DNA of 64,000 bases from Erysipelotrichales bacterium (GTDB lineage Bacteria; Bacillota_I; Bacilli_A; Erysipelotrichales; Erysipelotrichaceae), in assembly GCA_910575705.1 (NCBI GenBank), contig CAJTFG010000001.1:434001-498000 (forward strand). Reading direction: 5' to 3'. A program made the position numbers and the translations under genes. The notes under the pieces were generated by a model, which saw nothing but the letters and a program-made list of their open reading frames with translations, ran no database searches and was not told where the DNA came from. Below, piece by piece: positions 23,644-27,362 of the stretch. How positions within the stretch are numbered: the stretch's first letter is position 1; each line of letters starts with the position of its first letter.

Positions 23644-23666
23644 CCCAAAAGAAAAAAGGGTCCGTC

Positions 23667-23737
23667 TGCTTGTAGTCTGCCGATTTATGGTCAGCAGGTA
23701 GAAACTTTCCGCCCATATCGCGGATATTATACAAACA
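23667..23737 (-). promoter_or_regulatory. purine (guanine-type) riboswitch aptamer
   Basis: On the minus strand the conserved parts of the purine aptamer appear in order: TATAATATCC, GATATGG, AGTTTCTACC, CCATAAA and GACTAC. P1 is closed by TGTTTG (23732-23737) and CAAGCA (23667-23672). P2 pairs CCGC with GCGG, and P3 pairs CTGC(T)GA-like arms. The base that reads the ligand is C in GACTAC, as in guanine/hypoxanthine sensors, not the U of adenine sensors. With the downstream terminator it would shut the pur operon when guanine is abundant. Confidence 0.93.
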
Positions 23738-23812
23738 TTACATAATCATTTTACTAAATTCGTACATGTATTACAATACTTTTCACAGAATTTTAATTAT
23801 GTCGATTATGTC

Positions 23813-24562: not shown

Positions 24563-24636
24563 TTCCTTTTTCGCGAACGGTATATAATTGCAATGCGAAT
24601 GGTAAATTTTACTGGAATCTTTCTTTATCTTAAATT

Positions 24637-24660
24637 AAAAGCAACCAAATGGTTGCTTTT
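24637..24660 (-). terminator. terminator of the agr operon
   Basis: AAAAGCAACC (24637-24646), loop AAAT, GGTTGCTTTT (24651-24660): symmetric, so usable from both sides; it lies 13 nt after the agrD stop. Confidence 0.78.
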
Positions 24661-24672
24661 AATCTTGATCTC

Positions 24673-24807
24673 TTATTTCTTGTATTTTTCAAGTTCTTTA
24701 GGTGCTTTCACCTGATGCATATCATAATTAGACGCAGTATTTACAGAATTTACTGCAGCCTTATGAGATGCTTTAGCGATTACTTCCAAAACGTTAATTT
24801 TCTTCAT
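24673..24807 (-). CDS. agrD: AgrD-like autoinducer precursor with Ser in place of ring Cys
   Basis: 44 residues, too short for routine ORF lists: an amphipathic N-terminal helix (MKKINVLEVIAKASHKAAV), a central NTASNYDM, then HQVKAPKELEKYKK. The last part matches the AgrD recognition tail (VPKEL in S. aureus). Aligned on it, the five-residue ring C-DFIM of the known peptide corresponds to S-NYDM, so the peptide would close as a lactone through Ser, as known for Staphylococcus intermedius. AAGGAGG precedes the ATG, which overlaps the end of agrB. Mature length at the N-side cannot be read. Confidence 0.82.
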   Translation of the reverse strand: MKKINVLEVIAKASHKAAVNSVNTASNYDMHQVKAPKELEKYKK

Positions 24808-25369
24808 TGTTTTTCCTCCTTTCTAGTTTCCCCATAATAAGCAAAACGGCAATAATTATTAACAGAACTTCCATATGTACAATATAGACAGAACTTTCAG
24901 CGTATAAAATACATATTATTAAAAAGTACATACTAATTATGCCTTTGCTTATTCTCTTGTAATGTTTTTTTTCATCCGTTGTTAAAACTTTATTTTCATG
25001 ATCACACGGAGCTAAAAACCAGATCATCATAGCTGACAACCCAAATAATATATGTAATAAAATATTAGTTTTTAAAACAGCAATTAACCCTATATAAAGA
25101 ATAAATATCCCTATAAACGCACATTTGCATGTGAAATATGTTTTACAATGATATCCTCCAGTATATTTTCTTATAAATATAAAACCGCTTAAATATATCA
25201 CACCCTCAGCGATGCGATGCGTATATATGGCAATAAGAGAAATTATTATGATTCCTATTGCAGAAGAAATCAACAGTTCAAGTCCATAACTGTAAATCTC
25301 TATTTCATCCTTAATTATGTTGTTTCTTATTAACCGCGTCACAATACAATTCGATAGCGTTTTTATCAA
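24794..25369 (-). CDS. agrB: AgrB-like membrane endopeptidase
   Basis: 191 residues, mostly membrane: helices about 30-50, 52-70, 80-105, 108-120, 145-165 and 168-182. The catalytic pair lies in KYTGGYHCKTYFTCKCAF, with His and the Cys seven residues later, as in AgrB, which cuts the AgrD C-terminal tail and makes the (thio)lactone. Its last codons contain the agrD ribosome site and start. It is 30 nt after agrC. Confidence 0.88.
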   Translation of the reverse strand: MIKTLSNCIVTRLIRNNIIKDEIEIYSYGLELLISSAIGIIIISLIAIYTHRIAEGVIYLSGFIFIRKYTGGYHCKTYFTCKCAFIGIFILYIGLIAVLKTNILLHILFGLSAMMIWFLAPCDHENKVLTTDEKKHYKRISKGIISMYFLIICILYAESSVYIVHMEVLLIIIAVLLIMGKLERRKNNEEN

Positions 25370-25399: not shown

Positions 25400-26671
25400 T
25401 TAACAATTCATCAGAATATCGATCAAGAATACCCCATCACGTACTTGCTTTTCTAAACTTCCGTCGTATTTATCAATTATTTTGTAAATACTCTTCATAC
25501 CAAATCCATGATTTCGTTTATCCTGTTTACTCGTAACACTTGTATCTACTTCATCTATCAATACAGGATTAGAAATTTTTATATGCAATAACCCTTTATC
25601 TTTTGTTATTTTAAGCAGAACCTCTCCACCCTCATACGTATTTTCTACAGAGTTATCCAAAAGGTTTCCTAATAAAATGATCAAATCTTCATCTTTCATT
25701 ATACTAGAATTTTCATAAGTAATCTCACATCTCAGTTTAACTCCCTTTTGCATAGCAAACTTATTCTTAGATTGAAGAATATAATTCAATGTTTCATTAT
25801 CTGAAAAGCTGATAATATTTGTTTTATCTATTTCCTTATAAGATGTTTCCAGTATTTTAATCATCTCATCTACTTTTTGATCTTTTAAGCCTTCTACAAT
25901 ATACGATAATTGATGTTTTAAATCATGCTTAATTTTACGCATTTCCTCATTCAGTTCTTTTATATCTTCCATATTTTCACGTTGATACTTTAATTGCTGA
26001 ATAACCATCAATTCATGAGTTCTATTTTCTGAATCTCTGAGAATAAATTCAAAAAGAAAATATAATAAAATACAAAAGATCATTAAAACAATTATTGAAA
26101 GATATAATAATTTATAATTCATTACACCTCTTAATATTAATTCTAATAAATTTACTGATAAAATCCACAACATTATAATAAGAGGAACCAATAGAATCCA
26201 ATTTCTCTTGACTTCGATAATTACTCTTCTTTTCCTTCGAAATTCTGCAATTAAACCACCTAAAAATGCAAATACAATTTTTGATATTATAATGACGATA
26301 TAAAAATATTTTTCTTTAGACAAATTTTCAATTGGAACATTCATGAAAAATGAAGTACTAAATAAGGTTATCATATTAGAAATATATAATAACACATAAG
26401 AAAATACGGGAATAAATAATTTAATAACAATAGTGTCTTGAGATAAAAAATATGTAAATACTGCAAGTGTTAATATTTGTGTTCCTGTTTCTACAACATA
26501 AGGAACTCCAAGACTATTGAAAAAACTTACTTCTAAAAACAATAATATCCATAACAAAATAAAATACTTCTTATTAAATTTCTTGTTAGTCATAAGATAA
26601 TTAAACGTAAAATACACAATAGTAAAGGTCTCTACTGCATTTATAAATAAAGAAAACATTGAATCAAACAT
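25400..26671 (-). CDS. agrC: AgrC-like sensor histidine kinase (GHKL type)
   Basis: 423 residues. About six or seven membrane helices fill residues 1-210, the part that binds autoinducer in AgrC. A coiled-coil stretch follows (QQLKYQRENMEDIKELNEE), then the phosphoacceptor region MRKIKHDLKHQLSY (His near 250). The ATPase domain has LLGNLLDNSVENT (N-box) and HGFGMKSIYKIIDKY (G-box), typical of the HATPase_c_5/GHKL group (HPK10). It lies directly after the regulator gene. Confidence 0.88.
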   Translation of the reverse strand: MFDSMFSLFINAVETFTIVYFTFNYLMTNKKFNKKYFILLWILLFLEVSFFNSLGVPYVVETGTQILTLAVFTYFLSQDTIVIKLFIPVFSYVLLYISNMITLFSTSFFMNVPIENLSKEKYFYIVIIISKIVFAFLGGLIAEFRRKRRVIIEVKRNWILLVPLIIMLWILSVNLLELILRGVMNYKLLYLSIIVLMIFCILLYFLFEFILRDSENRTHELMVIQQLKYQRENMEDIKELNEEMRKIKHDLKHQLSYIVEGLKDQKVDEMIKILETSYKEIDKTNIISFSDNETLNYILQSKNKFAMQKGVKLRCEITYENSSIMKDEDLIILLGNLLDNSVENTYEGGEVLLKITKDKGLLHIKISNPVLIDEVDTSVTSKQDKRNHGFGMKSIYKIIDKYDGSLEKQVRDGVFLIDILMNC

Positions 26672-26675
26672 ATCG

Positions 26676-27362
26676 CTATCCCCTTACATATTTATGTAAA
26701 GTCTCCGTCACATGACTTCTTTTTCTTCTGCTTATCTCTAATCGGTTACCATCTGCCATATTTACATAAATATCTTCAATTTTCGTCAAATAATATAAAT
26801 TCACAATAACACTTCTATTAATCAATACAAAACCATCATCTAATTCGTCCATTAATGTTTTCAATGATTTACTCAATATTATTTGGCTTCCATCATTCAA
26901 ATATAGTAAAACATTATTTTTATATTTTTCTGCATACATGATAGAGCTGTATTCTATCTTTTTTAGTTTGCCCTCTTGTTTAACCAAAAAGAACTTTTTA
27001 TTTCTCTTTAAATCGTCCCGATACATTTGCATCGCTTTCGCAAAATCATTTTCAAAATCCGTTTTTCTTATAAAATAGAATGGCTGTGCCGCAAAGCTAT
27101 CAAATACATACTGTTCATGACTGGATATAAAGATGATCTTTTTATCAGCATCATTCTTTCGGATTCTCTTTGCAAATTCCATGCCGTTATCGTCTGGCAT
27201 CTCAATATCCAGAAAAATCAAACTTGCCTTGCTGATCAGCTCCGGCGAACAATTCTTTGTACTCGTAAAAGTAAAGATGCTTTTAATATGATGAGCTTCA
27301 AGAGCATGTTTCAGTTTTTCTGACATTTTCGGATCGTCATCAATTATAATCATCATAAACAT
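26676..27362 (-). CDS. agrA: AgrA-like LytTR response regulator
   Basis: 228 residues from the ATG at 27362 (AAGGA at 7 nt); the frame is open 42 codons further but that part has no ribosome site and is low-complexity. Receiver domain: MIIIDDDPKMSEKL (acid pocket), LIFLDIEMPDDNGMEFAKRI with the phospho-Asp, ISSHEQYVFDSF and the FYFIRK Lys. The C-terminal LytTR DNA-binding domain has FVLINRSVIVNLYYLTKIED and LEISRRKRSHV. Here agrA is first in the operon (A-C-B-D), the reverse of the usual B-D-C-A. Confidence 0.88.
   Translation of the reverse strand: MFMMIIIDDDPKMSEKLKHALEAHHIKSIFTFTSTKNCSPELISKASLIFLDIEMPDDNGMEFAKRIRKNDADKKIIFISSHEQYVFDSFAAQPFYFIRKTDFENDFAKAMQMYRDDLKRNKKFFLVKQEGKLKKIEYSSIMYAEKYKNNVLLYLNDGSQIILSKSLKTLMDELDDGFVLINRSVIVNLYYLTKIEDIYVNMADGNRLEISRRKRSHVTETLHKYVRG

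Follow-up and report, generated by a model that had tools for sequence, protein, structure and literature searches.

The agr operon and its smallest gene

On the minus strand of the window, i.e. the whole stretch of 64,000 nucleotides that was analysed, four adjacent and co-oriented genes form one operon in the order agrA-agrC-agrB-agrD. The features referred to below are as follows:

26676..27362, minus strand: agrA, response regulator with a receiver domain (PF00072, E 3.4e-15) and a LytTR DNA-binding domain (PF04397, E 7.9e-13)
25400..26671, minus strand: agrC, membrane sensor histidine kinase with a GHKL domain (PF14501, E 1.6e-17)
24794..25369, minus strand: agrB, membrane endopeptidase/cyclase (PF04647, E 4.8e-36), with a TTG start after AGGGGGG
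25148-25150, minus strand: codon of AgrB catalytic His74, invariant in 59/59 AgrBs
25127-25129, minus strand: codon of AgrB catalytic Cys81, invariant in 59/59 AgrBs
24673..24807, minus strand: agrD, 44-aa precursor MKKINVLEVIAKASHKAAVNSVNTASNYDMHQVKAPKELEKYKK, matched by TIGR04223; sole AgrD in the genome
24718..24732, minus strand: predicted ring codons Ser26-Asn-Tyr-Asp-Met30, the ring end at Met30 being taken from the S. aureus register
24634..24663, minus strand: candidate operon terminator, a 14-bp perfect inverted repeat (I12) just 3' of the agrD stop, with a T-rich end

The original prediction had placed a small AgrD-like ORF at 24673-24807 next to intact agrB, agrC and agrA; the ORF is confirmed, its strand, which had been omitted, is the minus strand, and the three neighbours are indeed an AgrB, a GHKL histidine kinase and a receiver-LytTR regulator. 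The agrC product, to which the staphylococcal AgrC model NF046015 gives a weak full-length match, is presumed to be the AIP receptor. Judging from its sequence, the inverted repeat may act as the terminator of the operon; it is absent from the results of a strict terminator scan. Near agr, Rfam detects no RNAIII-like or other known RNA besides a purine riboswitch (RF00167, 82.5 bits; window positions 23653-23754, minus strand), which lies upstream of purE and purine biosynthesis genes.

The agrD ORF starts with ATG at a spacing of 7 nt from a perfect Shine-Dalgarno sequence, AAAGGAGG. The 3' end of agrB and agrD share 14 bp, an overlap also found in relatives. The NCBIfam AgrD model TIGR04223 scores the ORF at 26.9 bits, against a curated cut-off of 19 bits, and this is its one match (E 3.7e-5) in the whole genome, which comprises 1.85 Mb in 11 contigs and is rated 100% complete; Pfam models give no match to the 44-aa ORF. 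With a profile built from relatives the ORF reaches E 3e-15, the next-best place in the genome 0.41, so that the match lies well beyond chance. The length of merely 44 codons is what might suggest a chance reading frame, a notion left with a negligible probability by the score above the curated cut-off, the genome-wide profile value, the ideal Shine-Dalgarno sequence and the overlap common to relatives. Nor is the gene easily missed, as had been supposed, for the curated model detects it.

Family, model and profile searches of the whole 1.85 Mb found no second AgrB or AgrD, the AgrB family having one match; a second agrD of the Cys type, named beforehand as the observation that would speak against the prediction, is likewise absent from the whole genome. 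The precursor itself holds zero Cys residues. Its C-terminal tail, HQVKAPKELEKYKK, is charged (net +3) and bears the conserved Pro motif, P36 being invariant in alignment A1, while the maximal 18-residue hydrophobic moment of the N-terminal leader, which would be amphipathic in an AgrD, is 0.33 versus a shuffle mean of 0.28, an unremarkable value reached by 31% of shuffles. Very probably, the small gene encodes the precursor of a ring-shaped signalling peptide closed by Ser, a predicted lactone.

Ring nucleophile and ring size

The textbook ring nucleophile of AgrD is cysteine. AgrB-linked small ORFs were gathered from a family sample of 273 genomes and an order sample of 316 genomes, the family being identified as Erysipelotrichaceae through records in common with named contigs, and an iterated profile yielded 63 distinct AgrD ORFs adjoining AgrB genes; a contig scan found only distant relatives, and the genus of the window consists of a single genome. 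In the column of Ser26, these 63 AgrDs show just three residues, Ser (42), Cys (18) and Thr (3); the Ser/Cys tally is somewhat biased by the initial seed pattern, which demanded C or S at the ring, although Thr cases still emerged. Six residues further on stands Gln (58), Glu (4) or Arg (1). The unbiased matches to TIGR04223 above the cut-off in the family, counted by eye, comprise about 10 Ser, 12 Cys and 2 Thr, and on both sequence tallies Ser is common and the register strict. Since the column is limited to C, S or T in 63/63, Ser26 is taken as the ring nucleophile, and the Ser-for-Cys AgrD of the original prediction, with its predicted lactone, is supported. Its wording, Ser instead of Cys, describes an unexceptional state, because Ser is suggested by the sequences, seed bias notwithstanding, to be the commonest ring state in this order.

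The register of SNYDM-HQVKAPKEL against the S. aureus ring CDFIM suggests a ring of five residues. By analogy, the product is likely cyclo(Ser-Asn-Tyr-Asp-Met), a lactone of five residues that carries a short tail outside the ring; its ring size, tail and chemistry are all predicted. The same system might make another ring, either the hexapeptide SNYDMH ending at His31 or a larger ring closed by Ser21 or Thr24 as in GBAP: most relatives have an aromatic residue, Tyr or Phe, at ring position 6, and six-residue clostridial rings as well as the nine-residue ring of GBAP are known (PMC12312760). Such a ring is rather unlikely here, for position 6 of the window AgrD is His, Thr24 and Ser21 lie in columns that vary among the 63 AgrDs whereas that of Ser26 is restricted, and the published table has pentapeptide rings with a hydrophobic last residue as its most frequent type (PMC12312760).

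Possible lineages of oxygen and sulfur closure

On a maximum-likelihood tree of AgrB (59 rows, many deep branches weakly supported), the nucleophile label changes 3 times, versus a shuffled mean of 17.7, and 0/200 shuffles are as low. The window AgrB falls in an 11-row clade (support 95/82) whose partner AgrDs are all of the Ser type; Ser is therefore an old, inherited lineage trait and neither an oddity of the strain nor a fresh loss. The one Ser-type AgrD that sits among Cys-type AgrBs (L020) indicates that switches of nucleophile do occur. A decaying, non-signalling locus in which Cys had mutated to Ser, in a genus whose single genome provides no close relatives for gauging selection, is highly improbable given four genes that are all open, intact catalytic residues and the inheritance of Ser throughout the clade. 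As for gene arrangement, agrD lies 3' of agrB on the same strand in 24/42 Ser-type loci versus 1/18 Cys-type loci.

A divergent, Ser-only subclass of AgrD, with a short tail Q-x-D-V-R-x-L-K and without the PxxL motif, has its genes upstream of agrB in the opposite orientation. A single Solobacterium-like genus supplies most of the members, and TIGR04223 misses the majority of the subclass (L023, L040, L041, L044, L045, L048, L050, L057, L060, L062, L077, L080, L083, L086 and L090). One Cys-type agrD (L014, G007:C2:278315-278416) has an in-frame TGA inside the ring (NSACVVI*GQPKEP), being either a pseudogene or a sequencing error. Genome G175 carries five agrBD pairs (L064, L065, L006/L067, L035 and L089) with three predicted chemistries, namely Ser, Cys and Thr.

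Three AgrB-adjacent AgrDs have Thr at the ring (L009, 1492-1635, minus strand; L089, 1194-1313, plus strand; L139, 977-1096, plus strand), their ring stretches being TWGGLYQ, TWFGEYE and TWFGVYE, respectively, with the pattern T-W-x-G-x-Y. Their AgrBs form one group on the tree (support 93/79), and on their sequences the three precursors would give threonine-closed lactones. A further ORF, L039 (1365-1550, KIPTLKTAWQP), may be a fourth AgrD of the Thr type. In the open-licence literature, the coverage of which is incomplete, no report of a Thr-type AgrD was found; as to AgrD of Erysipelotrichaceae, nothing relevant was found in that literature.

Four positions past the catalytic Cys, AgrB has Ser in 16/17 Cys-type and 0/42 Ser- or Thr-type members of the tree set. 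As a rule distinguishing Cys-type from O-type systems, this residue is broken in class-level loci outside the family, where L171 and L180 are of the Ser type with Ser there, and L161 and L168 of the Cys type with Thr; given these exceptions the correlation, which is confounded by lineage, is not a rule, and the residue possibly contributes to the choice of nucleophile. I would venture, tentatively and at less than even odds, that the AgrB/AgrD pairs of the order are old, separate lineages for closure by oxygen (Ser/Thr) or sulfur (Cys), that oxygen lactones prevail, and that the three Thr-type precursors make threonine-closed lactone autoinducers.

Proposed mechanism and known systems

Gene structure, homology, catalytic residues, the Ser26 register, the single copy in the genome and the all-Ser AgrB clade are the observations behind the overall reading, to which I assign a probability of roughly 0.86: a complete agr operon with a Ser26-closed lactone signal operating through AgrB, AgrC and AgrA. 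In the course proposed for AgrB, the enzyme forms an acyl-enzyme thioester, and attack by the precursor Cys then gives a 16-membered thiolactone (PMC4979651). Along the same line, the AgrB of the window, by means of His74 and Cys81, would cut AgrD after Met30 and keep the fragment as an acyl-enzyme thioester, which the hydroxyl of Ser26 would attack to yield the 16-membered lactone cyclo(Ser-Asn-Tyr-Asp-Met). The leader would then be stripped by a second protease, so that a short tail such as (V)NTA- is left; MroQ is a known leader protease (PMC12312760), and the one Rce1/CPBP protease of the genome (MroQ superfamily) is a candidate. Accumulating outside the cell, the peptide would activate AgrC, and phosphorylated AgrA would, via LytTR, regulate its targets, probably its own operon too; both receptor activation and autoregulation are modelled on known agr systems.

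The lactone might be transient, giving way outside the cell mainly to a linear hydrolysis product or, through an O-to-N acyl shift, to a homodetic cyclic peptide: after 22 h at pH 7, 36% of a synthetic lactone analogue of the Listeria AIP had hydrolysed and 48% had rearranged (PMC11297923). This is a very unlikely outcome, as the rearrangement requires a free N-terminus at the ring Ser, and the conserved NS/NT-A stretch ahead of the ring in relatives suggests that a tail is retained.

If the signal is the Ser26 lactone, assays that depend on a thiolactone would overlook it and its like. Lactone autoinducers are usually shown as exceptions (S. pseudintermedius, E. faecalis), but the survey suggests that in this order, to which rumen bacteria belong, they are the more frequent kind; less familiar is the commonness of oxygen-nucleophile AgrDs across it, the three Thr forms included. 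The survey also suggests that the lineage of AgrB predicts ring chemistry, and so offers test pairs for how AgrB chooses between O- and S-cyclisation.

Ser-lactone autoinducers are an established variant, of which the window locus is another member: S. pseudintermedius and E. faecalis are both known to make functional ones (PMC3673130, PMC12312760), and a 2025 primer (PMC12312760) counts these two and C. difficile agr2 among the Ser-type systems. The agr system of Staphylococcus pseudintermedius/intermedius (AIP RIPT[STGFF]) likewise has agrB, agrD, agrC and agrA genes and Ser for Cys; its five-residue lactone ring was demonstrated experimentally (PMC3673130, PMC12312760), that of the window being predicted, and a swap of Ser to Cys in S. 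pseudintermedius lowered RNAIII expression (PMC3673130). It differs from the window in gene order (B-D-C-A versus A-C-B-D, with agrD last), ring residues (SNYDM in the window) and bacterial order, and the Rfam search found no RNAIII near the window agr. With Enterococcus faecalis fsr (GBAP, QN[SPNIFGQWM]) the window shares an apparatus of the AgrB/C/A type and closure by Ser into a lactone, predicted in the window, whereas its predicted ring has five residues rather than nine and its AgrD has a PKEL-type tail. Clostridioides difficile agr2 (listed as NSA[SSWVA]; PMC12312760) also has Ser at the ring position after a similar NSA/NTA stretch, yet differs in the other ring residues, gene order and bacterial class. 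Finally, Staphylococcus aureus agr I (YST[CDFIM]) presents the same layout, a nucleophile plus four residues to Met followed by the P-K-E-L tail, its Cys thiolactone standing against the predicted Ser lactone of the window.
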